A stretch of DNA of 64,000 nucleotides, taken from the NCBI RefSeq assembly GCF_026427355.1, contig NZ_CP102664.1, positions 992,001 through 1,056,000 on the forward strand. The letters run 5' to 3'. Position numbers and translations under genes: made by a program. The stretch is from Sphingobium sp. JS3065 (GTDB lineage: Bacteria; Pseudomonadota; Alphaproteobacteria; Sphingomonadales; Sphingomonadaceae). Of this stretch, positions 5,861-20,738 are shown in pieces. Numbering within the stretch: the first letter of the stretch is position 1; every line of letters starts with the position of its first letter. A model generated the notes under the pieces. The model made no database searches, was not told the origin of the DNA, and worked only from the letters and a program-made list of their open reading frames with translations.

Positions 5861-5927
5861 GTCGGAATCCTGATTCACATGCGGCGCCCCGGCGAGGGGC
5901 GCCCATCAACGGGGAATGTCGAAGGAA

Positions 5928-6386: not shown

Positions 6387-7625
6387 CTAGTCGTGCCCCG
6401 CTTCATCTGGTGCCCAGATGCTGTGGGAATCGATCTGGATCTTGAGCAGAGCACGATCGGCTTCGGAGCGCGCCTCGATTTCCATTCGGCGCGCGTCATT
6501 GGCCTGCCGGCGGGCATAGAGCATATCGGAGAGGTCGATCTGCCCGAGTTGGTAACCGCGCACCGTCCTTTCGGCGGCGTCGCCGGCGCTGCGCGCCGAA
6601 GCGTCGGCATTGCGCCAGGCATCGAGCCGGGTGTGCGCGTTGGAAAGGTCGGCATTGGCGGTCGCCTCGATGCTGCGCTGCACGGCCGCGAGTTCCATGC
6701 GCGCGGCATTGGCCTCGGCTGACGCCTGATCGGCTGCGGCTCTGCGATAGCCACCGCCGAGCGGGATTAAAGCCACCACGCCCGCGCCGGCTTCCGCGCC
6801 GCCGCGCTCGCTGAACAGGCGGACGCCGAAGCTCGGGTCTGCGATGCGATCCGCTCGCACCCGACGCGAAGTCACGTTCAGACGCTGCGCTTCCTTGTCG
6901 GCGGCGCGGATCTCGTGACTGCGCTCGATTACCAGGTCGCGCATCGCTTCCAGCCCCTGGGCGGGCAGCATGGGGTCGGCCAGTTCTGGTGGTTCGGAGG
7001 GGAGCGGGATTTCCGGAAAGGACGCTGCGAAGGTCACGCGCGCCTGTTCGCGCAGCGAGAGTGACGATGCGGCCTGCGCGCGCGCCTGAGCCAGCGCCGC
7101 CTGCGCCTGGTCGAGGTCGAGTTGGGCGGCGTCTCGCAGCGTGACCCGCCGCTTTATGGCGGCGATTGCCTCCTCCAGCCCGCGGACGCTGTCGAGATCG
7201 TTGCGATAATGGCTTCCCGCAGTGAGCCAGTCGTGCCAATAGCCGGCCAGCAGCAGCGCGGTTTGATGGCGGACATCCTCCATCTGGTTTTCCGCGACCT
7301 CAATGCCGAGCGCACCGGCTTCGCGGTCGAGCGCGGCCTTGCCCGGCAGGCGGAATGGGCGGCTGATTGTCGTATCGAATTCGTCGAACCCGCCTTCGCG
7401 ATCGACGGTTCGGCGAATGTAGCTGCCGCTCACCGTCACTTCGTGGGGGCCTTTGCGCAGCATATCGCCGCGTGCCCGTGCGGCTTCGACGCGCGCAATT
7501 GCGGCGGCGACGCTGGGGTGATTGTCGAGCGCTTCGTTGACCTTGTCGGCAGGCGGCAGATCGGTATGCTGGGCCAGGGCAGGCGCGGCCGTCAGAAGGC
7601 CGAGAGCGGCGAGTACGATCCGCAT
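6387..7625 (-). CDS. TolC-family outer membrane efflux protein (CusC/CzcC-like)
   Basis: The 412-residue protein starts with a clear signal peptide (MRIVLAALGLLTAAPALA, cleaved near residue 18). It then shows the TolC-family pattern of long amphipathic helices rich in Ala, Gln, Arg and Glu (AAAIARVEAARARGD, ARAQAASSLSLREQARV). It would form the outer-membrane channel of the tripartite metal efflux pump encoded upstream. The ATG at 7625 overlaps the stop of the DUF3240 gene (TGATG), which supports this start over longer in-frame options. It is the last gene of the adaptor-pump-DUF3240-channel operon. Confidence 0.88.
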   Translation of the reverse strand: MRIVLAALGLLTAAPALAQHTDLPPADKVNEALDNHPSVAAAIARVEAARARGDMLRKGPHEVTVSGSYIRRTVDREGGFDEFDTTISRPFRLPGKAALDREAGALGIEVAENQMEDVRHQTALLLAGYWHDWLTAGSHYRNDLDSVRGLEEAIAAIKRRVTLRDAAQLDLDQAQAALAQARAQAASSLSLREQARVTFAASFPEIPLPSEPPELADPMLPAQGLEAMRDLVIERSHEIRAADKEAQRLNVTSRRVRADRIADPSFGVRLFSERGGAEAGAGVVALIPLGGGYRRAAADQASAEANAARMELAAVQRSIEATANADLSNAHTRLDAWRNADASARSAGDAAERTVRGYQLGQIDLSDMLYARRQANDARRMEIEARSEADRALLKIQIDSHSIWAPDEAGHD

Positions 7626-7924
7626 CAGGCGATCCTTCCATGATCGAGCAGGGGCGTCGTGCGCCACCGGACCGGCAGATCGCGCCGCGCGTCTTTTACG
7701 GTGCGGAGCAGGTCGGGCACCGCGTCCGCGCTCACGATCAGTTCGAGCGTCGAACGCTTCAATTCGCCCGACACGCGCTCGGCGGTTCCCGCATCGCCAA
7801 AATCGCGACCTCGCACAGCTTCCCCGCGGACATGGATTGGCGTGGGGGAGACGGCGCGGATCGCGTCCACGAGAAGCTCGGTATCGCGGGTGGCGCAATG
7901 GAGGGTGAACAGCAGGTCAGGCAT
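7625..7924 (-). CDS. DUF3240 family protein, PII-like accessory of metal RND pump
   Basis: This 99-residue cytoplasmic protein (MPDLLFTLHCATRDTELLVDAIRAV...) matches the DUF3240 pattern, a small ferredoxin-like/PII-like fold found almost only beside CusA/CzcA-type pumps. Its ATG overlaps the last 8 bases of the pump gene and its stop overlaps the ATG of the outer-membrane channel gene, so all three are translationally coupled. Two Cys/His positions near the N-terminus (LHCATRD) could be metal ligands. The role is unknown; regulation of the pump by metal or nucleotide is inferred only from position and fold. Confidence 0.72.
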   Translation of the reverse strand: MPDLLFTLHCATRDTELLVDAIRAVSPTPIHVRGEAVRGRDFGDAGTAERVSGELKRSTLELIVSADAVPDLLRTVKDARRDLPVRWRTTPLLDHGRIA

Positions 7925-10900
7925 TAGCGGCCTCCCCGGCGCTTTCCCCGAAGCGCTCGAACAGGATCGGCAGCAGGACCAGCGTCAGCAAAGTGGAGGT
8001 AATGAGGCCGCCGATCACCACGATCGCGAGCGGCCGCTGGATCTCGGACCCCGGCCCGCTGGCGAACAGCAGGGGGACGAGGCCGAAGGCCGTGATGCCG
8101 GCAGTCATCAGCACCGGTCGCAGCCGACGCTGCGCGCCCAGGCGCACGGTCTCGGCCATACCCACCCCGTCGGCGCGCAACTGGCGGAAATAGGCCACCA
8201 GCACCAACCCATTGAGCACGGCGATGCCGAGCAGGGCGATGAACCCCACCGACGCCGGGACCGAGAGATACTCGCCCGACAGCCACAGCGAGATCAGCCC
8301 GCCGACCATCGCGAAGGGGATGTTGGAGAGGATCAGCAGCGCGGCGCGCAATGAGCGCAGCGCCGCCAGCAGGACGAGGAAGATCAACACCAGCGCTACG
8401 GGCACCACCATCATCAGCCGGGCCGATGCGCGCTGCTGGTTCTCGAACTGACCGCCCCAGACGATGCTGTAGCCTGCCGGTAGCCGTACCTTGGCGGTGA
8501 CCTGCGCCTTCGCCTCATCGACATAGCCGACCAGATCGCGGCCGGAGACGAAGGCCTGCACCAGCGCGAAGCGCGAGCCGTTCTCGTGATCGAGCTTCAC
8601 CGGTCCCTGCGTGCGCTCCACCCGCGCCATGTCGCTGACACGCGCCAGCGTGCCATCGGGCGTGCGCAATTGCAGGTCGGCGAAACGGGCCGGATCGCTC
8701 CGGATGCCGTCGTCACCGCGAATGACGATCGGAATGCGTTTCTGACCTTCGGCCACGACCCCGGACCGCACGCCCTCGACCTGTCCGCGCAGCGCGTCCT
8801 GGAGCTGGTCGACCGGCATCCCGAACCGCCCCGCTGCCGCGCGGTCGATGTCGAGTTGGAGATAGTCCACATTGTCGTTGGCGACCGTCAGGACCTCCGA
8901 TGAGCCGTGGATGCCGGACAGGATATGCTGGATCCGACCCGCGAGCTCGGCGAGCGTTGCGGTGTCAGGCCCGAAAATCTTGACCGCTAGATCGCCGCGC
9001 GCGCCGGTGAGCATCTCCGAGACGCGCATCTCGATCGGCTGGGTGAAACTCGATTGGATACCGGGCAGGCCGTCCAGCGCCTTGCGCATTTCCCGGACGA
9101 CGAAATCCTTGTCCCCGCGCCATTGCGAGCGCGGCTTCAACTGGACGAAGCTGTCGGTCTCGTTCGGTCCCATCGGATCGAGACCGATCTCGTCGGAGCC
9201 GACGCGGGCGATCACGTCCTCCACCTCCGGCACGGTGCGGAGCGCGCGCTGCACCGCCATGTCGCCGGCCACCGATTGGTCCAGGCTGATCGAGGGCAGC
9301 TTGGTAAGCTGCACGATCACCGAGCCTTCGTCCATCGTCGGCATGAAGGTCTTCCCGGCCGCGCCATAAGCGAGGCCCGCCAGCACCAGCCCGGTGGCGG
9401 AGAGACCATAGACCAGCTTCTTGTGCGCGAACGCCGCGTCGAGCAGCGCCTGGTAGCGTGGGCCGATCTGCCGCATGATCCATGGCTCACCATGATGGCC
9501 GCTCCTGAGGCTGAAGGAGGCAAGGACCGGCACCAGCGTCAGGGCGAGCAGCAGGGAGCCCGCGAGCGCGAAGACGATGGTGAGCGCGACGGGCGCGAAC
9601 AGCTTGCCCTCCAGCCCCTGCAGCGAAAGCAGGGGCAGGAACACGAGCGCGATGATGACGATGCCCGCCGACACCGGCACGATCACCTCGCTGGTTGCGC
9701 GGAATACGTGGTTGAGTCGGGGCGTGTCCTCGCCCTGGGCATGGCTCAGGCGCTCGACGACATTCTCGACCACCACCACCGCGCCGTCGACCAGCATCCC
9801 GATCGCGATGGCGAGCCCGCCGAGGCTCATGAGGTTCGCGGACAGCCCCATGCCGCGCATGAACAGGAAGGTGATGAGCGCGGCCATCGGCAGGGTCGCC
9901 GCGACGATCGTGGCCGCACGCCAGTCGCCGAGGAACAGGATCAGCAGCACGACGACCAGCACGGTCGCTTCCAGCAGCGCCTCCTCGACCGTGCCGACCG
10001 CGCGCCCGATCAGATCGGAGCGATCGTAGAAGACATGGATCTGCGTGCCTGCGGGCAAGCTGTGCTGAAGCCCGGCAAGCCGCGTCCGCACGCCATCGAC
10101 CACCGCCCGCGCATCCGCGCCGCGCAGCGCGATCACCAGGCCCTCCACCGCCTCGGCCTTGCCGCCGCGCGTCACCGCCCCATAGCGGGTGAGGCTGCCG
10201 GTGCCGACTGTGGCGACGTCGCCCAGGCGGACGATGCGGCCGTCCCGGCTGGCGATGACCAGCGTTTGCAGATCCTCCACGCTGCGGATCGCGCCCACGG
10301 CTCGGACGATCAGCGATTCCTCGCCATCGGTCAGGCGCCCCGCGCCGTCATTGCGATTGCCGCTTTCGATCGCGGTGCGCAGATCGGAGATCGAGAGCTT
10401 CGCGCTCGCCAGCGCCACCGGATCAGGCCGGACCTCGAAGGTACGAACATAGCCGCCCAGCGCGTTCACGTCCGCGACGCCGGGCACTGTGCGCAGCGCC
10501 GGGCGGATCGTCCAGTCGAGCAGTTCGCGTTTCTGCTGGAGAGACAGCGGCCCTTCGATCGTGAACATGTAGACGTCGGACAGGGGCGTCGAGATCGGCG
10601 CGAGACCGCCGGTCACGGCAGCAGGCAGATCGCCCGTCACGCCCGCCAGCCGTTCGGCGACCTGTTGGCGCGCCCAGTAGATGTCGGTGCCGTCGGTAAA
10701 GTCGATGGTTATGTCGGCGATGGCATATTTGGCGCTCGAGCGCAGGATCGCCTGGTTGGGAATGCCGAGCATCTCCGTCTCGATCGGCGTGATGACGCGG
10801 CTCTCGACCTCCTCCGGCGTCATGCCGGGGGCTTTGAGGATCAGCTTCACCTGGGTCTGCGCGATGTTGGGATAGGCATCGACCGGCAAGTTGACAAAAG

Positions 10901-10988
10901 CCCAGACCCCGAGCCCGGCCGTGGCGGCGGCAAGGATCAGGACGAGCAGACGATAGGACAGCGCGGTGGCGACAAGCGAACGCAGCAT
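7917..10988 (-). CDS. Heavy-metal efflux RND transporter, CusA/CzcA family
   Basis: The protein is 1023 residues, the full length of an HME-RND pump: inner-membrane helix 1, a periplasmic porter domain (VNLPVDAYPNIAQTQVKL), the central helices with GGLAIAIGMLVDGAVVVVEN in TM4 (the Asp/Glu proton-relay region typical of heavy-metal RND pumps), a second porter domain (VIVQLTKLPSISLDQS) and helices 8-12. It exports metal cations by proton antiport with the neighbouring adaptor and channel. Copper/silver (Cus) and cobalt/zinc/cadmium (Czc) types are hard to separate by eye; the copper-type receptor genes nearby favour copper. It starts 9 bases after the adaptor stop. Confidence 0.9.
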   Translation of the reverse strand: MLRSLVATALSYRLLVLILAAATAGLGVWAFVNLPVDAYPNIAQTQVKLILKAPGMTPEEVESRVITPIETEMLGIPNQAILRSSAKYAIADITIDFTDGTDIYWARQQVAERLAGVTGDLPAAVTGGLAPISTPLSDVYMFTIEGPLSLQQKRELLDWTIRPALRTVPGVADVNALGGYVRTFEVRPDPVALASAKLSISDLRTAIESGNRNDGAGRLTDGEESLIVRAVGAIRSVEDLQTLVIASRDGRIVRLGDVATVGTGSLTRYGAVTRGGKAEAVEGLVIALRGADARAVVDGVRTRLAGLQHSLPAGTQIHVFYDRSDLIGRAVGTVEEALLEATVLVVVLLILFLGDWRAATIVAATLPMAALITFLFMRGMGLSANLMSLGGLAIAIGMLVDGAVVVVENVVERLSHAQGEDTPRLNHVFRATSEVIVPVSAGIVIIALVFLPLLSLQGLEGKLFAPVALTIVFALAGSLLLALTLVPVLASFSLRSGHHGEPWIMRQIGPRYQALLDAAFAHKKLVYGLSATGLVLAGLAYGAAGKTFMPTMDEGSVIVQLTKLPSISLDQSVAGDMAVQRALRTVPEVEDVIARVGSDEIGLDPMGPNETDSFVQLKPRSQWRGDKDFVVREMRKALDGLPGIQSSFTQPIEMRVSEMLTGARGDLAVKIFGPDTATLAELAGRIQHILSGIHGSSEVLTVANDNVDYLQLDIDRAAAGRFGMPVDQLQDALRGQVEGVRSGVVAEGQKRIPIVIRGDDGIRSDPARFADLQLRTPDGTLARVSDMARVERTQGPVKLDHENGSRFALVQAFVSGRDLVGYVDEAKAQVTAKVRLPAGYSIVWGGQFENQQRASARLMMVVPVALVLIFLVLLAALRSLRAALLILSNIPFAMVGGLISLWLSGEYLSVPASVGFIALLGIAVLNGLVLVAYFRQLRADGVGMAETVRLGAQRRLRPVLMTAGITAFGLVPLLFASGPGSEIQRPLAIVVIGGLITSTLLTLVLLPILFERFGESAGEAANA

Positions 10989-10997
10989 CGGGAGAGC

Positions 10998-12110
10998 CTA
11001 TTGCGCGGTGGCGAGCGCCTTGAGCGCGCTCGTACCGGAAACCACCACCTGTTCACCGGGCCTGATCCCGGAGAGCAGCACCGTGCGGCCATCACTGCCG
11101 CTGCCGCCGGTCACGGCGCGCACGGCAAAGCCGCCGCGCGCGGTCACGAACACAACCGGCTTGCCGTCGATCATGGTGACCGCCGTATCGGGCACGCTGA
11201 CCGCGCCCGCCGGCGCCGGGCCGACGATGACGATGCTGGTTGCGCGCCCCGCGACAACACCGGGTCCGGCCGGAATCTCCGCCTTGAGGCCGGCCGAACG
11301 GGTCGCGGGATCGATGGCCGTTCCCACCGCGACGATCCGGCCGGTGAGGTTGGGAAGTAGCCGCACGCTCATGCCGGGGCGCACTTGCCCGATCAGCCGT
11401 TCGGGCAATTGGCCGACCACTTCATAGCGATCCGTCGCGTCGATCACATAGGGCGCGGTGGTGCCGTCCACCGGATTGCCGGTCTGGATGGAGGCGCTGG
11501 TGACGCGACCCGCGATAGGAGCCGTCAGCGTATAGGAGCCGCTGGCGCCATGACCGCCCACCATCGCCAGGATGCGCGACTTTTCCGAAACGTCGGCGCG
11601 AGCCTCGGCTGCGATGGCATTGGCTTCGTCAGCGCGCGCGCCTGCGATGATGCCTTCGCGGCTGAGCAGGGAGAGCCGCGCGGCATTGGCCTCGGCTACG
11701 CCACGCCGCGCGTTCGCGCGGCTGAGGTCCGCGCCGATCGTCAGCACGTCGCGGCTGGCGATGATCGCCAGCGGCTGGCCCCGCCGCACGCTGTCGCCCT
11801 CGACCACGAGAGTCCGCAACACGGTGCCGGGAAAGGTCGCGGCCACCGCCACCCGGGCGTTGGCGGGAGGCTCGATCATCGCGGGGATGGTGGCGAGCGC
11901 CGCATCCGCGGCTGCCGTCGCGGGCATAAGGCGGATACCCATCTGCGCGGCGCGGCGCGCATCCACCGCCAGGATCCCATCTGTCGGTTGGGCGTTGCTT
12001 GCCGGCGCGGAGTTGCCCGTCTCGACCGGTCGACTGGCGAACCACCACAGGCCTGATAGAATCAAGGCGATCGTCGCGGCGCCCGCAATGAGGGTGTATC
12101 GTCTGGACAT
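10998..12110 (-). CDS. RND efflux periplasmic adaptor subunit (CusB/CzcB-like)
   Basis: This 370-residue membrane-fusion protein has an N-terminal anchor (TLIAGAATIALILSGLWWFA), lipoyl/biotinyl-type halves around a helical hairpin (TVLRTLVVEGDSVRRGQPLAIIAS ... YTLTAPIAGRVTSASIQTGNPV), and a C-terminal beta-barrel and membrane-proximal domain (KPVVFVTARGGFAVRAVTGGSGSDG). It links the pump and the TolC-like channel. It is the first gene of the efflux operon. Just upstream lies a pho-box-like direct repeat with a candidate -10 box whose predicted transcript start falls almost on the ATG, so the mRNA may be leaderless. Confidence 0.88.
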   Translation of the reverse strand: MSRRYTLIAGAATIALILSGLWWFASRPVETGNSAPASNAQPTDGILAVDARRAAQMGIRLMPATAAADAALATIPAMIEPPANARVAVAATFPGTVLRTLVVEGDSVRRGQPLAIIASRDVLTIGADLSRANARRGVAEANAARLSLLSREGIIAGARADEANAIAAEARADVSEKSRILAMVGGHGASGSYTLTAPIAGRVTSASIQTGNPVDGTTAPYVIDATDRYEVVGQLPERLIGQVRPGMSVRLLPNLTGRIVAVGTAIDPATRSAGLKAEIPAGPGVVAGRATSIVIVGPAPAGAVSVPDTAVTMIDGKPVVFVTARGGFAVRAVTGGSGSDGRTVLLSGIRPGEQVVVSGTSALKALATAQ

Positions 12111-12115
12111 GCGCT

Positions 12116-12149
12116 CGGGCTAGGGAGCGTTCCTGACCGAACCCTGACG
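12116..12149 (-). promoter_or_regulatory. Response-regulator box and -10 upstream of the metal efflux operon (site A)
   Basis: On the minus strand, CGTCAGGGTTCGGTCAG (12133-12149) contains two GTCAG units 11 bases apart. Ten bases further downstream is TAGCCC, a plausible -10 element. This is the geometry of PhoB/OmpR-type class II activation. The same box with the same spacing to TAGCCC occurs upstream of the cytochrome gene, and a third copy precedes the VIT1/CCC1 gene. The -10 ends only 6 bases before the adaptor ATG. Confidence 0.62.
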
Positions 12150-12167
12150 GGATATGAGGATTGAAGA

Positions 12168-13184
12168 TCAGGTCGCGGGAAAACGCAGCACCAGTTCACG
12201 GTCGGCCGGATCGGTCTCAAGCGTGCCGCCATGGGCCGCCATGATCCGGTCGACGATAGCGAGGCCGAGGCCGGCGCCATCCTTGCTCGCATGGTCGGCG
12301 CGGCGGTGGCGTTGCACAAGGTCGCGCAACCTTTCGAGCGCCAGCCCAGGGCCCTCGTCCCGCACGCCCAATAGCGCGTGGGGGCCGGCGAAGACCTGGA
12401 TCGTGCCACCAGCCGGCGTCACGCGCGCGGCATTCTCGATCAGATTGCGCAGCGCTGCCGCAATCGCTTCGCGCCTGCCGTTCACGACCGCAGCCTGACC
12501 GCGGGTATCGAACGCGATCAGCTTGCCTTGTGCGATGATCCCCGGCGCCACGGCGCTGACGACCTCGCTCGCCACATCCGCGAGTGACACCTGTTCGGGA
12601 GCGGTCTGGGCGGCCTCCGCCGCGTCGATCTGCGCGAGCAGCATGAGTTGGTCGATCAGCCGGCGCATGGCCGCCACGTCTTCCTTGAGGCGCGCGGCGT
12701 CGTCATAGTCAAGCCGGTCGAGTTCGAGAGACAGGAGGGCGAGCGGCGTGCGCAACTCGTGCGCGACGTCGGCGGCGAACGCTTCCTGCCGCCGCGCGGC
12801 CTGATCGAGCCGCGCCAACAGATCGTTGACCGCATAGACGAAGGGTAGCGCCTCGGCGGGCATTTGCGACGCATCGATGCGGAACCCTCGTTCGTGGCCC
12901 TGTGCAGCCTCGATCCGGGCGGCGGCATCTTCCAGCGGTGCGAAGGCCTGGCGGATCACTCGGAGCACCATGATCGCGACGGGAACGAGCAGGACGACAA
13001 GCGGCAGAGCGACATGCTCAAGCATTTCCTTGATCGCGCGGATCATCGCCGCGCGTGCATCGAGATGTGTGAAGGTGACACTGTAGAAGAAGGCGACCGC
13101 CGCCAGCAGCAGAACGGTGCCCGCCACACCAATCAGGCCCAAACCGCGTTTGAGGCGCCGTGAGATGGAGCGCTGCACGGTCAT
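12168..13184 (-). CDS. Sensor histidine kinase
   Basis: This 338-residue kinase has two membrane segments (about 15-36 and 58-75) flanking a periplasmic part of only about 20 residues. A HAMP-like linker, a dimerisation/phosphoacceptor helix with AHELRTPL (His142) and an ATPase domain with an N-box (RNLIENAARVTP), G1 (VRDEGPGLA) and G2 (GAGLGLAIV) follow. The start overlaps the response-regulator stop by 4 bases. The short periplasmic loop leaves little room for a classic metal-binding sensor domain, so it may sense within the membrane. Likely the partner of the adjacent regulator, controlling metal efflux. Confidence 0.87.
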   Translation of the reverse strand: MTVQRSISRRLKRGLGLIGVAGTVLLLAAVAFFYSVTFTHLDARAAMIRAIKEMLEHVALPLVVLLVPVAIMVLRVIRQAFAPLEDAAARIEAAQGHERGFRIDASQMPAEALPFVYAVNDLLARLDQAARRQEAFAADVAHELRTPLALLSLELDRLDYDDAARLKEDVAAMRRLIDQLMLLAQIDAAEAAQTAPEQVSLADVASEVVSAVAPGIIAQGKLIAFDTRGQAAVVNGRREAIAAALRNLIENAARVTPAGGTIQVFAGPHALLGVRDEGPGLALERLRDLVQRHRRADHASKDGAGLGLAIVDRIMAAHGGTLETDPADRELVLRFPAT

Positions 13185-13858
13185 GCCTTCCCGTCCTTCA
13201 GCATATAGCCGACACCCCGAACGGTATGGAGCGCGCCGGCCACGCCCGTGTCTTCGAGCTTGCGGCGCAGACGCGAAATGGCGGCTTCGACCGCATTGGG
13301 GGTCACCGGATCGTTGAAGCTGTAGAGCGCGTTCTCGATCACTTCGCGATGGACCACCGTGCCGGCTCGCCGCATCAGCAGTTCCAGAAGGTCCGCCTCG
13401 CGGCGCGAAAGGTCGATCTCGCGATCGCCAATGCTGGCAGAGCGGCTTGCCGTGTCGAAACGCAGCATGCCGACTTCGATGACGGGCTGGGTTCGAACGC
13501 CAGGCCGGCGCAGCAGGGCGCGGATGCGCGCGGCGAGCTCGTCGATCTCGAAGGGTTTGACGATATAATCGTCTGCGCCGGAATCGAGACCGGTGACGCG
13601 ATCCTCCAGCGCCCCACGCGCGGTCTGGATGATGGCAGGCGGCATCTGCTGATATTTTCGGCGGCTCGCGAGCCAGTCGATCCCGTCGCCGTCGGGCAGG
13701 CCGAGGTCGAGTATGATGGCATCATAGCTCGCGCTGCCCATCGCAGCGTCGGCTTGTGCGAGATCATGGGCAACATCGCACACGAAGCCCCGGCGCTGAA
13801 GACCGTCGGCGATCAGTGCCGCCATTCGCTCATTATCTTCGACGATGAGAAGGCGCAT
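13181..13858 (-). CDS. OmpR/PhoB-family response regulator
   Basis: The 225-residue regulator has a receiver domain with acidic pocket (VEDNE), phosphoacceptor Asp51 (IILDLGLPDGDG) and Lys101 (DDYIVKPFE), followed by a winged-helix DNA-binding domain (about residues 125-225, VIENALYSFNDPVTPNAVEAAISRLRRKLE). This is the CusR/CzcR/QseB type. It precedes and overlaps its kinase. OmpR-family regulators bind direct repeats with an 11-base period; three such sites lie at 12133-12149, 14666-14682 and 15444-15460, so it is the obvious candidate to bind them. That link is inferred. Confidence 0.9.
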   Translation of the reverse strand: MRLLIVEDNERMAALIADGLQRRGFVCDVAHDLAQADAAMGSASYDAIILDLGLPDGDGIDWLASRRKYQQMPPAIIQTARGALEDRVTGLDSGADDYIVKPFEIDELAARIRALLRRPGVRTQPVIEVGMLRFDTASRSASIGDREIDLSRREADLLELLMRRAGTVVHREVIENALYSFNDPVTPNAVEAAISRLRRKLEDTGVAGALHTVRGVGYMLKDGKA

Positions 13859-13936
13859 GGGTTTAATGTAGACTTTCCACCAGGAACGAAAGGCAAGAAG
13901 GATTGAAGCTTTCTACCAGACCATCAACCGATGTTT

Positions 13937-14626
13937 TCAATCCCTTTCCTCGTGCGAACCGTGATGGGAATGGCGTTGCTGCGGCGCGAAGGCGGTCGGA
14001 TCCACCATGACAATGGCGATGATTGCCAGAACGATCGCTGCGGCACCAAGTAGAGCCGCAAACAAGCCTGGTCCCCGAGCCTCACGCACATTCGGATAGA
14101 GGCTGTTCTTCTTGCGGCCGCTGATCATCGCGCGAACAAGGTTTTCGCCGGTGAGCAGCGACATCAACAGCACGGCGCCGACATGAAGCCCGATCAAAGC
14201 AAGCAGGCTGTAGGCGAGGGTTTCATGAAGGTCTTTGTCCATGCCGCCTGCCGCAACGCTGCTGCCGCTCCAGATGACGATTCCGGTCAATCCGATCAGC
14301 GCCACGACTGCGATCGCGCCCAGTGGATTATGACCCACGGAACGTCGAGGATGGCCAGCTAGAAGGTCGCGTGCATGGGTGGCGATTGCTGTTGGCCGAA
14401 TGAAATTCACGAACCGGGCATGCTCGCCTCCGACGAAGCCCCAGATCAGACGGAACGCAAGCAAGGCAGCAGCAGACCATCCTGCGACCATATGCCACGA
14501 TGCGATCGGACTATCGTCGTCGGAAGAGAGAAACGCGATCGAGATCGCTAGGACCAGCAGCCAATGGAATAGCCGTAGCGGCGTGTCCCAAACCTTGAAT
14601 GTCCTTGTATATTCAGAATTTGTCAT
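13937..14626 (-). CDS. Cytochrome b/b561-type membrane protein
   Basis: This protein of about 229 residues has four to five membrane helices and histidines placed as in b-type cytochromes of the CybB/Ni-Fe hydrogenase family: LFHWLLV in helix 1, SWHMVAGW in helix 2, and DLHETLAYSLLALIGLHVG in the later helices. It would carry electrons within the inner membrane. I prefer the ATG at 14626 (AAGG 8 bases upstream); a GTG sits directly before it. The C-terminus is His-rich (QQRHSHHGSHEE), which could bind metal. Its promoter has the same regulator box as the metal efflux operon. Confidence 0.83.
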   Translation of the reverse strand: MTNSEYTRTFKVWDTPLRLFHWLLVLAISIAFLSSDDDSPIASWHMVAGWSAAALLAFRLIWGFVGGEHARFVNFIRPTAIATHARDLLAGHPRRSVGHNPLGAIAVVALIGLTGIVIWSGSSVAAGGMDKDLHETLAYSLLALIGLHVGAVLLMSLLTGENLVRAMISGRKKNSLYPNVREARGPGLFAALLGAAAIVLAIIAIVMVDPTAFAPQQRHSHHGSHEERD

Positions 14627-14637
14627 CACGTTCGCCT

Positions 14638-14682
14638 TTCCAGCTGGAAGGGCTACGGGTGTTCACTGACCGAATCCTGACG
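14638..14682 (-). promoter_or_regulatory. Response-regulator box upstream of cytochrome b gene (site B), plus 12-base palindrome
   Basis: On the minus strand CGTCAGGATTCGGTCAG (14666-14682) differs from site A at one base. It is followed after exactly 10 bases by the same TAGCCC -10-like hexamer (14650-14655). Between the hexamer and the start codon is a perfect palindrome, TTCCAGCTGGAA (14638-14649), which could be a second operator or part of the leader. The repeated spacing makes this a strong candidate regulated promoter. Confidence 0.62.
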
Positions 14683-14698
14683 ATGTGAGCAGCGTGGT

Positions 14699-15400
14699 TC
14701 AAACCACTGTTCCGAACAGCCTCCCGATGCCCGCGGTCGCAGCCAGGGCCAGCGCGCCCCAGAATGTGACCCGTAGGATTGATTTCATGGGGCGGGCGCC
14801 CCCGGCCCAGGCGCCAAGCGCGCCCAGCAGTGCGAGAAACAACAGGGTTGCCGCGACCTCGATTGCGACGAGGCTATCATGCGGAACGACGGCGACCAAC
14901 AACAGGGGCATGAGGGCGCCTGTGCTGAAAGTTGCGGCGGATGTGAGCGCGGCCTGGATAGGGCGGGCGGTCACGACTTCGGAAATGCCGAGTTCGTCGC
15001 GGGCATGCGCGGCCAGCGCATCCTTTGCCATTAGTTCGTCGGCTACCTGCCGGGCCAGTTCCTCATTCAGACCGCGTTTGACATAGATGTCCGCCAGTTC
15101 CTGATGCTCGAGCACCGGTTGAACGGCGAGTTCACCTCTTTCCCGGGCGAGGTCGGCATTCTCCGTGTCCGCCTGAGAGCTGACCGAGACATATTCGCCG
15201 GCGGCCATCGACATGGCGCCTGCCACCAGCGCCGCCATCCCTGCGACCAGGATATTGGCCTTGCCCGCGCCGGAGGCTGCGACGCCGACGATGAGGCTCG
15301 CGGTCGAAACGATCCCATCATTGGCTCCCAGCACTGCCGCGCGTAGCCAGCCGATGCGTGACACCGCATGGCGTTCGGGATGGGATCTTAGTCGGCTCAT
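14699..15400 (-). CDS. VIT1/CCC1-family iron/manganese transporter
   Basis: The 233-residue protein opens with the family signature GWLRAAVLGANDGIVSTASLIVGVAASG. It has AGAMSMAAGEYVSVSSQADTE, a cytoplasmic metal-binding helical region rich in Glu (about residues 85-135), and three further membrane helices. VIT1/CCC1 proteins export or store Fe2+ or Mn2+. Placement between a regulator box and the other metal genes suggests induction under metal stress. The ATG is followed by MSRLRSHPERH. Whether iron or manganese is moved cannot be read from the sequence. Confidence 0.87.
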   Translation of the reverse strand: MSRLRSHPERHAVSRIGWLRAAVLGANDGIVSTASLIVGVAASGAGKANILVAGMAALVAGAMSMAAGEYVSVSSQADTENADLARERGELAVQPVLEHQELADIYVKRGLNEELARQVADELMAKDALAAHARDELGISEVVTARPIQAALTSAATFSTGALMPLLLVAVVPHDSLVAIEVAATLLFLALLGALGAWAGGARPMKSILRVTFWGALALAATAGIGRLFGTVV

Positions 15401-15427
15401 GGTGTCCTTCGTAAAATGCCGTGAAAA

Positions 15428-15460
15428 AGTTCAACAGTCTTTCCTGACGAAACCCTGACG
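15428..15460 (-). promoter_or_regulatory. Response-regulator box upstream of VIT1/CCC1 gene (site C)
   Basis: On the minus strand CGTCAGGGTTTCGTCAG (15444-15460) again has two GTCAG units 11 bases apart. At the 10-base spacing used in sites A and B the hexamer is TGAACT (15428-15433), a poorer -10 match, so promoter strength or exact position may differ. About 43 bases separate the box from the ATG. Confidence 0.55.
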
Positions 15461-15593
15461 ATGATTGGTAGCCGGCATAGCTCAGCAATCCCTACTTGAA
15501 TCGGTCTACATTTGTCGCACCACGCTGAAATCGGCACTCGGTGAAGGGGCCGTCACGCTTGAATCCATAGAGATTGGAGAGACCCGGCCTAGT

Positions 15594-15845
15594 TCATGTG
15601 ATCATGGCCTCCTGCAGGCGGCTCATGAGAGGCAGCGCCAATTCCAGATCATCCGGTTCGACGGCTGCCTCCAATATGGTTTCGACGTGCATGACGGCTA
15701 TGTTCACAGCTTTGGCCTTCGCATGACCGCGGGGATCGATTTCGGAATCCGTCTTCTTGCGAAACTTCGGGGTGAAGAGACTGCAAAAATTACGTAACTC
15801 GCGATCGAATATGATCCAGCCCCCCGTTCGATACGGGTCGTCCAC
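15594..15845 (-). CDS. Small hypothetical protein
   Basis: An 83-residue frame starts at a GTG with AGGA about 10 bases upstream. The product (MDDPYRTGGWIIFDRELRNFCSL...) has the mixed composition of a soluble protein, with a helical C-terminal half (VNIAVMHVETILEAAVEPDDLELALPLMSRLQEAMIT). I do not recognise a family. An overlapping plus-strand frame (15465-15797) is less protein-like. It stands alone between the metal cluster and a gene-poor stretch. Confidence 0.42.
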   Translation of the reverse strand: MDDPYRTGGWIIFDRELRNFCSLFTPKFRKKTDSEIDPRGHAKAKAVNIAVMHVETILEAAVEPDDLELALPLMSRLQEAMIT

Positions 15846-16339
15846 GTAATGCGAGTCCTGAACTAATCGCGACAGCGCGTGCGATTATGGGTGAGGATGC
15901 GGCCTATCAGGCCGCTTTGATCGCTGCGGAACGTCGCGTATGAGTGAGAGGCGCGTTAGAGGGGCTTACAAGCCGCATCAGCTTCCAGCCCAGGAAATAG
16001 CGGAACGGGAGCCGAACTGGGCAAGGATAACTTGCACTGCGTCGCTCAATAACTGCGGCAATCCCCATTCGGATAACGGAAACCGAGCGTATATTGCGAG
16101 ATGAAGTGATACGGCCTTCCGCTCGAACATGATCGCCGTCGCTGGACAATGGAAGCCGTGGACCGAAAGGGAGGTCCACGAAATCGTAGCCCGATCACGG
16201 GAAAGGAATTATCTTTCCCGATTGCTGACCCACATGCTTGCCGTTTTTCGCTGGCGGATGATCGAACAAGATTGGCGGCGCCTCCTCTCGCTGCTTGCTC
16301 CGTCAAAGTGAGCGGTTTCGCGCGGGCATCGTCCCCAGT
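15846..16339. other. Gene-poor stretch, no supported gene
   Basis: About 490 bases with only short overlapping frames on both strands (60 to 90 codons) and no convincing ribosome site, domain or promoter. It may be decayed sequence separating the metal cluster from the envelope-stress genes. I see no terminal repeats that would define a mobile element. Confidence 0.5.
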
Positions 16340-16990
16340 CTACCGTTTCGGCGCCTTTGGGCGCTGCGCGCGGATTTCCGCCAGCAGCACGCCAAGATAT
16401 TTCTCAGCTTCGGCAGCTTCGCTTTCGGGATAGGCGGCCGTCATGCGTCCGCTCCAATAGCCATAGTCGACTGTCGTCAGGCTGGAACGCCATGGTTTGC
16501 CGTCGCGATAGCCGGTGAAAGTTCCGCGATAGGCCTTGAGGCGGCGATTGGTTGGGATCGTCGCCGGTCCTTCCGACACGATGGTCGGCGCGGCAAAATG
16601 GGACATCGTAGCCTGACGCATGATCATATAGTGGTCGCGTGGCGACATCTGGTCGATATGGACCACCGCCATCCGCACCACGATGCGATCGTCGCCGGTG
16701 CCGAGTGGCCGGTCGTAGCCGATGGCGATATACTCGCCGCCCGGATCGAATGCCCGTTCCCTGAGGCGGGTAAAGCCCTCGAATTCCTCCGGGAAGCGCA
16801 GGCCGCTGGCCACGTGGACAAGAGTTGTGCCGTCCGGCGCCAACTCAAATCCGTCGGGTACCGCGATTGCCGTGGCGTCGGCCGAAGGCGGCGCAGCGGG
16901 CGCGGTTTCAGCCAGTGACGGAGCCGCCGAGGACAGCCCCAGCAGGATGGCGGCGGCAAGGGAAACTGGAACGCGCAATGATCGGGACAT
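16340..16990 (-). CDS. Exported protein of unknown function
   Basis: The 216-residue product starts with a signal peptide (MSRSLRVPVSLAAAILLGLSSAAPSLA, cleavage near residue 27). A mature domain follows with the pattern VPDGFELAPDGTTLVHVASGLRFPEEFEGFTRLRERAFDPGGEYIAIGYDRP, a beta-rich periplasmic fold. I cannot assign a family with certainty. The ATG at 16990 is preceded by AGAGGA and fits the signal peptide; a longer frame reaching 17140 is unlikely. It lies 121 bases downstream of the L,D-transpeptidase gene on the same strand, so they may share a transcript and an envelope role. Confidence 0.7.
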   Translation of the reverse strand: MSRSLRVPVSLAAAILLGLSSAAPSLAETAPAAPPSADATAIAVPDGFELAPDGTTLVHVASGLRFPEEFEGFTRLRERAFDPGGEYIAIGYDRPLGTGDDRIVVRMAVVHIDQMSPRDHYMIMRQATMSHFAAPTIVSEGPATIPTNRRLKAYRGTFTGYRDGKPWRSSLTTVDYGYWSGRMTAAYPESEAAEAEKYLGVLLAEIRAQRPKAPKR

Positions 16991-17111
16991 CGAAGTCAAA
17001 TCCTCTGGTGAGTATGTCGTAATTAGGCCGGTCTTCGCAATTATGGCAGGGGGCTGTTTGGAATCAGGCGGTAAGACGCTGCGATGGACGCGAAGTCGGG
17101 ATTGCGCAACG

Positions 17112-18194
17112 TCATCGTTCGTTTGTATCCGCTTGGGCATCCTCGCCCGTGAGCACGGTCAGGGATGTGCCTGTACTCCCGCTTTCGAGGGTATCGGCCG
17201 TGACGATCAGCGTGCTTCCCGGTTTGAGCACCGACAGCAGGCCCCGTCTGAAGTCCTCGGGAAGGATTAGCCGCTCCCGGTCCTGCCGCGAGACTTCCCC
17301 CGTCTGTGCACCGCCAAATACAGGGAGGAACATCCAATGCGTCCCGTGTTCGTCGATGGAGGCGAGGTTGAAGGCCTGAAGGCCGGAGATCTTGCCGCGG
17401 ATGGCGACAGGCGCCGAACCGATTTCGATGCCGTTTCGCAACACCACGGCGCGCTGGTCCGCCGCGCTGACGATTATGGAGATCGGCCCTGTGAGTGCTT
17501 TCTCTGGCTGCCAGACCGTCAAAAAGGCATTCCCGAACGACGAGCGCCGGGCCGTATCCTGCAGGATACGGGGAGCTGGGGCAAAGCGCGGAATCTCGCT
17601 TGCCTGCGTGATGATGACCGTCAGGCCAAGCTGCGTGACATCATAGAGGTGCTCGGCGAACGTCAGGGGAAACCGGATGCATCCGTGCGAGGCGGGATAG
17701 CCCGGAAGATTGCCGGCGTGCATGGCAATCCCGTCCCAGGTGAGGCGCTGCATGTAGGGCATCGGCGCGTCATTGTAGAGGTTCGATCTGTGCGCGACTT
17801 TCTTTTGGAGGATGGTGAAAACCCCGGTCGGCGTTTCGTGGCCGGCTGCGCCGGTGGAAACGGTCGAGATGCCGATCAGGACGCCGTTGCGATAGACATA
17901 GGCCCGCTGCCTGGCGAGGCTGACGATGATGACCACCGGACCATCGGGAGCCGCTTCGGGCGCCCACAGGAACTCTCCTGGCCGTAACGCTTCCACGCTC
18001 GCCGCGATCGATCCTGGATCAAGCGCCATAGCGCGGATCGGAGCGGCGGTCAGGCAGAGCGCGGCAGTCATGGTGCCGGCAAGAAGCGTTCGGCGCGAGA
18101 AGCGTGTCGATGGTGCGTGGGATGCGCCGGCCGTTGCCACGGCAGTGAGCGTCGGGGTTCGCAATATGATGTCTGGTGTTGTGATTTTATCCAT
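17112..18194 (-). CDS. L,D-transpeptidase (YkuD domain), Tat-exported
   Basis: The 360-residue protein has a twin-arginine signal (RFSRRTLLAGT, residues 31-41) and a YkuD domain with the catalytic motif: His159 (IAMHAGNLPGYP) and SHGC with Cys172. A second YkuD-like half (PISIIVSAADQRAVVLRNGIEIG) follows without the catalytic Cys. It would cross-link peptidoglycan stem peptides in the periplasm through 3-3 bonds or attach proteins. The Tat motif sets the start upstream of residue 31; the ATG at 18194 touches AAGAGG with almost no spacing, so the exact start is uncertain. Confidence 0.85.
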   Translation of the reverse strand: MDKITTPDIILRTPTLTAVATAGASHAPSTRFSRRTLLAGTMTAALCLTAAPIRAMALDPGSIAASVEALRPGEFLWAPEAAPDGPVVIIVSLARQRAYVYRNGVLIGISTVSTGAAGHETPTGVFTILQKKVAHRSNLYNDAPMPYMQRLTWDGIAMHAGNLPGYPASHGCIRFPLTFAEHLYDVTQLGLTVIITQASEIPRFAPAPRILQDTARRSSFGNAFLTVWQPEKALTGPISIIVSAADQRAVVLRNGIEIGSAPVAIRGKISGLQAFNLASIDEHGTHWMFLPVFGGAQTGEVSRQDRERLILPEDFRRGLLSVLKPGSTLIVTADTLESGSTGTSLTVLTGEDAQADTNER

Positions 18195-18333
18195 CCTCTT
18201 CTGATCAGGCCATAATATCGGTCTGCTTCGCGACGGCCAGCGAATCCTTGCCGAAGAACATTTCTGTCCGTCCTGCAAATACACGGCGACACGTTCCTTG
18301 GTTGGCGGACCACTGCTGATATGTTGCGTCGAT

Positions 18334-19191
18334 ATGACCCCGCGAACGATTCTGTTTCCAACCGATTTTAGCGGTCGCTGCGACCGAGCCCGCGACCGCG
18401 CGATACAGCTGGCGAGCGAGTGGCGCGCACATCTGGTTCTTCTCCACGTTCAGAGGGATCCCGATCCCGCAGACATGCTCGACGGACTGCAGGCCGCCGA
18501 GAGTCGCCTTCATGCCCGCTTGCGGGCGGAGGTGGCGGACCCGGATATTCCGGTCGAGACACGCCTCGCCACCGGCGCCGTCTCGCAGGCGGTGCTGGAA
18601 GCGTCAACCGCATGCGGGGCGGATCTCATCGTGACCGGCATCTCGCGCCATGACGATATCGGGGATTTCCTGATCGGCACGACCGTGGAGCGCATGATAC
18701 GCCATGCTCATGCGCCGGTGCTTATCGTGAAGGAAAAGACCCAGCACCACTATCGCCGGGTCTTGGTCGCAACCGATTTCTCCGGCTGCTCGGCCCAGGC
18801 GCTTCGCACGGCCATGGCCGCATTCCCCGCTGCCGAGATCACTCTCGTTCACGCCTATCACGTGCCGCTGGAGGCACTTCGGGGCCGGGAAGGGCCGGCA
18901 GCTGCGCTGCAGGCCAGGATAGCCTATGATCTGGATGCCTTTCTGGACAGGACCGATCTGCCCGCCGACGCACGCGACAGGCTGGATATCAATGTCGACT
19001 ATGGCGAGGTTTGCGAGGTTGTCCGCAATCATGTGAAGCTGAGCGAAACCGACCTGGCCGTGATCGGAACGCACGGTCGATCGGCCCTGACGGTGGCGGT
19101 GCTCGGCAGCACGGCGCGGGCGCTGCTCAGCCGTCTCGATTGCGATGTCCTGCTCGTGCGCCAGCAGCCGCAGGCGGATGCTGCCGTCTGA
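18334..19191 (+). CDS. Tandem universal stress protein (UspA family)
   Basis: The 285-residue protein consists of two UspA domains (about 1-135 and 140-285). The first begins TPRTILFPTDFSGRCDRARDRAIQ and the second YRRVLVATDFSGCSAQALRTAM. Each has the ATP-binding loop: GISRHDDIGDFLIGTTVERMI and GTHGRSALTVAVLGSTARALL. Such tandem Usps act in hypoxia, energy limitation and envelope stress. The ATG at 18334 is chosen because the Usp fold starts there; a TTG at 18298 is possible. The stop overlaps the next gene. Confidence 0.86.
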   Translation: MTPRTILFPTDFSGRCDRARDRAIQLASEWRAHLVLLHVQRDPDPADMLDGLQAAESRLHARLRAEVADPDIPVETRLATGAVSQAVLEASTACGADLIVTGISRHDDIGDFLIGTTVERMIRHAHAPVLIVKEKTQHHYRRVLVATDFSGCSAQALRTAMAAFPAAEITLVHAYHVPLEALRGREGPAAALQARIAYDLDAFLDRTDLPADARDRLDINVDYGEVCEVVRNHVKLSETDLAVIGTHGRSALTVAVLGSTARALLSRLDCDVLLVRQQPQADAAV

Positions 19192-20738
19192 TCCGGATCG
19201 TCATCCTTGCCTGCCTGGGCTTCGTCGCGGCGTCGATGCTCGCGACTTGGGTCTACGGCCTGTTCGCCAGTCGCGCGCAGGGGGAGCCTTCCTACGCACT
19301 GTCGATCGAACGCGGCCGGACGCCGCTCGATCAGCGTATCGGCGCCACGACGGATGCGCACCCCGGTGAGAGCGGCCTGCTTTTGCTGGACGAGAATCTC
19401 GACGCCTTCGCGGCACGTGGATTGTCGGCGCGCAAGGTCGAGCGCTCGCTCGATCTGATGTATTACATCTGGCACGACGATCTGACCGGCCGCCTTCTTC
19501 TGGCCGAGGCCCTGTCCGCGGCCGATCGCGGCGTCAGGGTGCGGATCCTGATCGACGACATCGGCACCAGCCATACATCTGATGCGATGATCGCCATGGC
19601 GCATCATCCGCATATCGAGATCCGTATCTTCAACCCGACCCGGGCGCGGCAGGGCGGCTTGCGGCGCGGCATCGAAATGATGCTGCGCGCCTTCAGCGTG
19701 ACCCGGCGCATGCACAACAAGGCCTGGATCGCTGATGGCCGCGTTGCCATCCTTGGCGGGCGCAATATCGGCGACGCCTATTTCGATGCCGCGACGCAAA
19801 CCAATTTCCGCGACATGGACGTGCTGGTGATGGGGCCAGCCGTCGCCCAGACGGAGAAGATCTTCGACGATTACTGGAACAGCGGCCTGGCGTTGCCGGT
19901 CGATAGGCTTTCGCCCTTGAAAGATCCTGGCGCGGCGCTGACGCGGATCGCCGCCGAATTGAGCAACGCTGCCAATGAGGCTGCCGCGCGCCCCTATCTG
20001 GAGCGCATCGCCAAACGGCTCTCGCTTCTCGATCCCGAGACCACGCGGCCCGACTGGACTCGCGCCGCCCGCGTGATCGCCGATCCGCCGCGCAAGGTGC
20101 TGGGCAAGGAGGGCAAGAACTGGCTGATGCACGACCTGCTGCCGGTCTTCGATGCGGCGCGGGAAAGGCTTGAAATCACTTCGCCCTATTTCATCCCCGG
20201 CGAGGAAGGCACGGCGGCGCTCGCCGCGATTGCGGCAAAGGGGGTTTCGGTCTCGGTCCTGACCAATTCTCTTGCGGCAACCGATGTCGCCGCGGTCCAT
20301 GGCGGTTATGCGCGCTACCGTGTTCCGCTGCTCGAGGCAGGGATCAAGCTCTGGGAATTGCGCCCCGAGCATCAGGAGCGGGACTTTTCCCTGCGAGGAT
20401 CGAGCCGGGCAAGCCTGCACACCAAGGCTTTCACTGCCGACGGGCATATGGGGTTCATCGGCTCGATGAACCTGGATCCTCGTTCGGCTTCCCTCAACAC
20501 GGAAATGGGCGTCCTCTTCGAGTCCGAGGCCCTGGCCCGGAAGATGGCTGCCATCTGGCAGCGCGATACCGCGCCCTCCCGCAGCTATGAGGTCTGTCTG
20601 ACGTCGGATGGCGACGTGGCATGGGCCGGGAGCCGGAACGGCGTGCCCGTCCGATACGACCGGGAACCGGAAGCCTCGTTCTGGCGCAGACTAACCGCAC
20701 AGGCCATTGGCCTTCTGCCGCTGGAATCGCAGCTTTGA
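19188..20738 (+). CDS. Phospholipase D family protein (cardiolipin-synthase-like)
   Basis: This protein of about 500 residues has two HxKxxxxD catalytic motifs, MHNKAWIADGRVAILGG in the first half and LHTKAFTADGHMGFIGSMNLD in the second, the arrangement of cardiolipin synthases and related transphosphatidylases. It begins with a membrane segment (LIRIVILACLGFVAASMLATWVYG). The start is odd: no ATG, GTG or TTG lies before this segment near the upstream stop. A CTG at 19188 overlaps the Usp stop (CTGA); the first conventional start is the ATG at 19236, which would cut the segment. Translational coupling to the Usp gene is likely. Confidence 0.8.
   Translation: MIRIVILACLGFVAASMLATWVYGLFASRAQGEPSYALSIERGRTPLDQRIGATTDAHPGESGLLLLDENLDAFAARGLSARKVERSLDLMYYIWHDDLTGRLLLAEALSAADRGVRVRILIDDIGTSHTSDAMIAMAHHPHIEIRIFNPTRARQGGLRRGIEMMLRAFSVTRRMHNKAWIADGRVAILGGRNIGDAYFDAATQTNFRDMDVLVMGPAVAQTEKIFDDYWNSGLALPVDRLSPLKDPGAALTRIAAELSNAANEAAARPYLERIAKRLSLLDPETTRPDWTRAARVIADPPRKVLGKEGKNWLMHDLLPVFDAARERLEITSPYFIPGEEGTAALAAIAAKGVSVSVLTNSLAATDVAAVHGGYARYRVPLLEAGIKLWELRPEHQERDFSLRGSSRASLHTKAFTADGHMGFIGSMNLDPRSASLNTEMGVLFESEALARKMAAIWQRDTAPSRSYEVCLTSDGDVAWAGSRNGVPVRYDREPEASFWRRLTAQAIGLLPLESQL

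Follow-up and report, generated by a model that had tools for sequence, protein, structure and literature searches.

Two-component systems of the PmrA and BqsR type are the closest described relatives of the system reported here. The PmrA box, CTTAAG-N5-xTTAAT, is arranged head to tail with its half-sites 11 bases apart (PMC3973317), and the BqsR operator of Pseudomonas aeruginosa is TTAAG-N6-TTAAG, one pentamer of which serves both BqsR and RNA polymerase at the promoter studied (PMC4682146); in Caulobacter, the alphaproteobacterial pair UzcRS responds to U, Zn and Cu, and its site, CATTAC-N6-TTAA, is termed partially palindromic (PMC8963506); no usable UzcR consensus was obtained from PMC12864828. 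Here we describe a locus of Sphingobium sp. JS3065, within a 64,000-nucleotide stretch (NZ_CP102664.1, positions 992,001 to 1,056,000; hereafter the window, in whose own numbering coordinates are given), where three copies of a box GTCAG-N6-GTCAG stand before genes for metal transport and a membrane cytochrome; they are probably the operators of a phosphorylated PmrA/BqsR-type regulator encoded between them. In the open-licence PMC literature, judged by title, we found no account of GTCAG-N6-GTCAG or of this regulon in sphingomonads. For Sphingobium sp. ba1, an RNA-seq study reports that nickel induces catalases, peroxidases, an RND system and a two-component pair of CopS/OmpR type (PMC5557971).

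Each box consists of two GTCAG pentamers, head to tail and 11 bases apart from start to start, on the minus strand, which is also the coding strand of all six genes concerned. In the order of transcription, box 3 (CGTCAGGGTTTCGTCAG, 15444..15460) lies 43 bases 5' of the start of a gene for a VIT1/CCC1-type Fe/Mn exporter (14699..15400; PF01988, E 7e-68; EgVIT1 6iu3, E 5e-22); box 2 (CGTCAGGATTCGGTCAG, 14666..14682) lies 36 bases before the GTG, or 39 before the ATG, of a cytochrome b561 gene (13937..14629; PF01292), which is followed by the genes for the regulator (13181..13858) and a sensor kinase (12168..13184); and box 1 (CGTCAGGGTTCGGTCAG, 12133..12149) lies 22 bases 5' of the ATG of an RND periplasmic adaptor (10998..12110; HlyD_D23/RND_mfp), followed by that for a CzcA/CusA-family RND metal pump (7917..10988). 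After a gap of 10 bases, boxes 1 and 2 are followed by TAGCCC (12117..12122 and 14650..14655, minus strand), a candidate minus-10 element, and box 3 by TGAACT. The initial annotation, made from the sequence of the window, had reported the three 17-mers, their position directly upstream of the three genes, the 11-base pentamer spacing and the TAGCCC exactly 10 bases past the first two boxes, and all of these are found as it described them. In the window no separate box precedes the regulator gene, which is separated from cytochrome b by 78 bases, so that control through box 2, by readthrough, is the simplest reading.

The regulator, with a PF00072 receiver and a PF00486 winged-helix domain of OmpR type, is scored by the NCBIfam models for PmrA at 202.7 bits, for the CzcR/CopR group at 189 and for PhoB at 152, all under the curated cut-offs (the equivalog cut-offs are 330 for PmrA and 296.2 for PhoB); its best solved match is BasR/PmrA (8jo2, E 7e-50; 4s04, E 8e-50). 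Together with the published PmrA and BqsR boxes, these scores point to a PmrA/BqsR-like operator with another pentamer and not to a Pho box, as the initial annotation had labeled it; a tandem pentamer with a six-base spacer is of the BqsR type and near the PmrA box. Of the activation geometry proposed with that label, the fixed distance from box to candidate minus-10 survives and the name does not. The position of the box relative to the candidate TAG would fit one pentamer at minus-35, the place expected for it in a BqsR-type operator.

Each of the described systems shares part of this arrangement. PmrAB (BasRS) of enterobacteria, the best curated family and solved structure for the regulator, has the same 11-base head-to-tail half-sites but a TTAA core where all three boxes here have GTCAG; the targets here are metal and redox genes, and the regulator, at 203 bits, is below the equivalog cut-off of that family. 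BqsRS/CarRS shares the pentamer-N6-pentamer direct repeat but not the pentamer, and here the regulon is a compact one of VIT1, cytochrome b561 and RND pump, under a kinase with an E-x3-H motif instead of a strict ExxE. UzcRS has half-sites six bases apart, as here, but these are of other sequence and its regulon is broad. Pairs of the CzcRS/CopRS type are encoded, as here, beside a CzcBA/CusBA-type pump and are the second-best family for the regulator and the best for the kinase, a likeness of proteins and gene setting; both window proteins are under the model cut-offs, and VIT1 and cytochrome b are additional targets here.

Conservation in relatives is what chiefly argues for an operator. Searching 296 genomes of the order for the regulator (E <= 1e-60) gave 18 places in 15 genomes, our own included; the 17 other places, in 14 genomes, were taken as loci of about 19 kb each (one of 14 kb; L160-L176) chosen with the box ignored, and their regulators share 48-72% identity with that of the window. 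These regulator-selected loci contain 36 exact copies of GTCAG-N6-GTCAG, against a mean of 0.4 and a maximum of 2 in 100 dinucleotide shuffles, whereas spacers of 0-5 and 7-15 bases occur 0-3 times each. At least one exact box is present in 15 of the 17 (L175 and L176 are without), and the tighter pattern GTCAGGNTTNNGTCAG, at up to one mismatch, occurs 17 times against 0-2 in 12 shuffles. The same genes recur behind the boxes: the adaptor in all nine regulator-selected loci that have one, cytochrome b in L161, L162, L169, L171 and L174, and VIT in L173, as well as in L036, L180 and L191 outside that set. The regulator itself has a box before it, at about 50 bases in L163, L164, L166, L168 and L169 and at 136 bases in L167, and also in L183 and L192 outside the set. 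Some of the 36 boxes do not precede a recognizable gene (for example L160 3622, L169 6304 and L171 840). Across these loci the inner six bases vary while pentamers and spacing persist. The excess of exact N6 boxes over shuffles and the specificity for this spacer link a conserved operator to this regulator family; GTCAG-N6-GTCAG is a conserved control element associated with the family, and its predicted operator. The proposals of the initial annotation that the three units form a local regulon and that the OmpR-type regulator is the likely binder are supported, as predictions. When genome contigs were scanned with the regulator, a single close named relative emerged (L036, Sphingomonas sp. 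IBVSS2, 81% identity); the other 79 of 80 loci, at 49% or less, were left unused.

Within the genome itself the statistics are more modest. GTCAGGNTTNNGTCAG has three exact copies in 5.11 Mb, all at this locus within 3.3 kb, against one for the reversed control; eight more copies appear with one mismatch, where the control (up to one mismatch) gives seven, a random level that we treat as chance. In the 64-kb window, seven sites at up to one mismatch compare with a shuffle mean of 3.3 and are reached by 7 of 100 shuffles, which is not significant. The loose pattern GTCAGN6GTCAG is not rare, its 10 exact matches in 5.11 Mb comparing with 4 for the pattern reversed. Seven of the 10 lie outside the locus; at the five of these examined, the longest open frame runs to 155, 185, 443, 500 and 529 codons, so that the three longest, at least, resemble coding sequence; frames of 155 and 185 codons are poor grounds for calling a site coding. 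On the question of random density raised by the initial annotation the outcome is divided: one-mismatch copies are at random density, while exact copies are non-random in place and the motif recurs at these genes in relatives. Since the genome count alone is modest, the case rests on box position and on conservation in relatives. Order-wide, GTCAGGNTTNNGTCAG occurs at 58 places in 49 of 396 genomes (control matches, 11). Among 20 loci hand-picked from own-genome and order-wide matches, 15 (L181, L182, L184-L189, L193-L199) do not lie beside homologs of the adaptor, VIT, cytochrome b or regulator, and several of these 15 matches fall within open frames; the short pattern alone thus has chance matches or sites of other regulators.

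We compared 14 adaptor promoters (the window, L036 found by regulator homology, nine from regulator-selected loci, and L183, L191 and L192 fetched for the box), excluding L177 and L178 as identical copies. The ATG follows the box by 22-24 bases in all 14, TAG follows it by 10-11 bases in nine, and a Shine-Dalgarno core is missing 5-15 bases before the ATG in 13. With a minus-10 element at the TAG, transcription would begin approximately at the A of the ATG, at or beside it in the window, and from this spacing and the missing Shine-Dalgarno core the adaptor-pump mRNA is predicted to be leaderless. Searched for by pattern alone, the composite box-N9..11-TAG-N6..10-ATG was found at 34 places in 31 of 94 genomes of the genus, with no control match, and 28 of the 30 loci fetched from these lie at the adaptor (L222, with a broken frame, is among them; L230 and L231 lie elsewhere). 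The family yielded 21 places in 19 of 347 genomes (one control match), 13 at the adaptor and 8 beside another regulator, 37-42% identical to that of the window; at seven of these eight the open reading frame at the ATG encodes a small protein of 103-117 residues, and all four that were scanned are PepSY proteins. A class sample of 385 genomes gave the composite in two, our own and G826, with one control match, and the G826 locus has none of the seven query genes. Genus and family lists share two places and together make 53 distinct ones; in 10 of the 53, our own included, the 41-base composite is letter-identical, a sign of recent transfer, so these places are not independent. Behind the intact box in L191 (17298-18400), adaptor homology comes in two pieces, and the frame there looks broken. 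An inverted repeat around the TAG was rejected as a general feature of adaptor promoters, the mean longest stem being 3.9 against 3.2 in shuffles (n = 33); 9 of 33 reach p <= 0.1, the centers shift, and the repeat is striking only singly (L191, G438, G454).

Genes behind boxes in relatives indicate what such a regulon may be for. Two PF00141 peroxidases, with 732 and 754 residues and probably catalase-peroxidases, have a box before them in L036 (267 bases to the start) and L171 (53 bases). Boxes likewise precede a di-haem cytochrome c peroxidase in L163 and L180; rubrerythrin-like proteins in L171, L172, L173 and L191; and PepSY_2 proteins in L171, L172 and, twice, L191 (signal sequences of box-adjacent proteins were assessed by eye). 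In L190 (9252-9816) an exact box lies 24 bases 5' of an ECF sigma factor gene, with VIT and regulator homologs some 8-9 kb off. Pairs of boxes pointing apart (L171 13137-13215, L172 11513-11591, L173 11074-11133) have one box toward PepSY_2 (L171, L172) or cytochrome b (L173) and the other toward the rubrerythrin-like protein, and appear to be divergent promoters with one box each. The peroxidase, rubrerythrin and PepSY genes behind boxes, together with VIT1, suggest as the likeliest role that of shielding the envelope from an excess of iron or another divalent metal and from the peroxide chemistry that this feeds. As to the pump, its closest solved relative is ZneA, followed by CusA. The three-methionine metal site of CusA (M573, M623 and M672) aligns by eye with Q, E and E in the window pump, making a divalent main substrate more likely than copper or silver. 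L036 (4370-4657) also has a fourth exact box, followed by a short open reading frame that by eye resembles a VIT start and then by the PF00141 peroxidase gene, and this box may be a captured VIT promoter.

In the mechanism that we propose, the kinase would sense excess metal at its short periplasmic loop and phosphorylate the regulator, a head-to-tail dimer of which would bind the box where a minus-35 element would otherwise lie and activate the promoter; transcription of the adaptor gene would begin at its ATG, giving a leaderless pump mRNA. Because regulator and kinase follow cytochrome b, box 2 would also provide positive autoregulation. Two elements of this scheme go beyond the initial annotation, namely that box 2 heads a run including regulator and kinase, with likely autoregulation, and that the adaptor promoter looks leaderless. 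The kinase, identified by family matches, has by eye two membrane helices joined by a short loop, and KEMLEHVALP, from residue 52, stands at the edge of the second, so that EMLE is residues 53-56 and E53-x3-H57 is the candidate metal site. Of 23 kinases, counting that of the window, 21 have E53 and 20 have H57; those without H57 are from L175 and L176, the two box-less regulator-selected loci, and from L183, whose kinase is more distant (28%). Where the kinase has a long periplasmic domain, as in L171-L174 and L191, the E-x3-H motif keeps its position. Comparable sites are known: an ExxE near the second membrane helix of ColS senses Zn and Fe3+, with Mn and Cd also activating (PMC4074579), and BqsS has a periplasmic Fe2+ site based on glutamate, R44-E45-x-x-E48-N49 (RExxEN; PMC12666569), to which E53-x3-H57 may be likened. 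ColRS of Pseudomonas putida may resemble the window pair in having a glutamate motif beside the second membrane helix, but the periplasmic loop of ColS has 96 residues where that of the window kinase is short, and its targets are other ones.

Several observations weigh against this reading. Three exact copies in the genome against one in the control are a modest argument taken alone. Neither the other two VIT paralogs nor the PF00141 peroxidase of this genome has an exact box, and the loose one-mismatch matches do not stand before these genes; the regulon in this genome may therefore be limited to three transcription units, and the wider regulon is visible in relatives only. In L160, L169 and L183 the VIT gene starts with no box within 260 bases. 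TAGCCC resembles TATAAT weakly and is lacking at box 3, and TAG is found in just five of the nine adaptor promoters from regulator-selected loci. Of the two glutamates of ExxE, the kinases conserve just the first one well; at position 56, 12 of the 23 have E and 2 have D. Finally, regulators of 37-42% identity stand beside the same composite, so the binder is not uniquely fixed.

This last point leads to the explanation that the boxes are operators of one or more other regulators of the same family, encoded elsewhere and engaged in crosstalk, with the local pair as just one input. The eight family places with a different regulator, seven of them before a small protein (PepSY in four of four scanned), agree with it, as does G008, where regulator homology stops after 26 residues (L179:8941-9018) with boxes 2 and 3, cytochrome b and VIT1 still present, and where another such system (L223) has a regulator 82% identical over residues 69-221. 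We nevertheless consider it unlikely, given that boxes accompany 15 of 17 loci picked by homology to the local regulator and that the tight box is found nowhere else in this genome. Far less probable is that PhoB binds here and ties phosphate starvation to these genes. Pho boxes are tandem repeats of 11-base period with a GTCA core, which the present boxes do resemble; regulator family scores, operator spacing and half-site led us to reject a Pho box, the local regulator scoring considerably higher with PmrA than with PhoB, no phosphate family occurring among the scanned box-adjacent proteins, and exact sites being absent elsewhere in the genome, where a Pho regulon should have more.

We give equally little credence to chance, or to copying of one duplicated promoter segment, as the origin of the boxes. 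Since another species of the genus (L177) carries 19.9 kb around the locus at 99.995% identity, copies in the closest relatives cannot count as independent, and the fourth box of L036 precedes what by eye looks like a remnant of a VIT start; yet the flanks of the three window boxes are unrelated (by eye), it is the inner six bases that vary at 48-72% regulator identity, with pentamers and spacing retained, and the 36 N6 boxes of the regulator-selected loci contradict it. Control by the regulator encoded between the boxes remains the probable reading.

Such control would provide, for the sphingomonads, which are useful in bioremediation, a defined operator and a regulon of metal and peroxide stress that can be tested, and would place RND pumping, an iron/manganese exporter and a membrane cytochrome under a single regulator. 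A possible use of the three promoters is as metal biosensors. More tentatively, and with rather more doubt than confidence, we suggest a sphingomonad class of metal/peroxide promoters in which GTCAG-N6-GTCAG, 10 bases, TAG and ATG are locked within about 40 bases, with leaderless RND pump mRNA and PepSY mRNA of paralogous systems, kinases that read metal by E-x3-H at the membrane edge and, for defence of the envelope against Fenton chemistry, a regulon comprising iron exporter, cytochrome b561, exported peroxidases and rubrerythrin-like protein. The rule of 22-24 bases between activator box and start codon would allow promoters that are leaderless and activator-dependent to be recognized from sequence alone.

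The block travels together with its putative operators. Besides L177, long near-identical stretches are present in G011 (L178) and G008 (L179), and window positions 14358-19600 (5.2 kb) are 99.9% identical to the conjugative plasmid pDC02 (CP021183.1) of Rhizorhabdus wittichii DC-6, on which an IS6-family transposase lies about 0.4 kb from the edge of the shared block. In G011 an insertion of about 3.9 kb (L178:8349-12277), bounded by the inverted ends GGCGATTATGC/GCATAATCGCC and showing an 8-base overlap, apparently a target duplication, separates cytochrome b from the regulator and cuts box 2 off from regulator and kinase. Downstream of the pump gene in the window and on the same strand, 6387-7898 and 3626-5878 look by eye like genes for the outer-membrane factor of the pump and for a TonB-dependent receptor.

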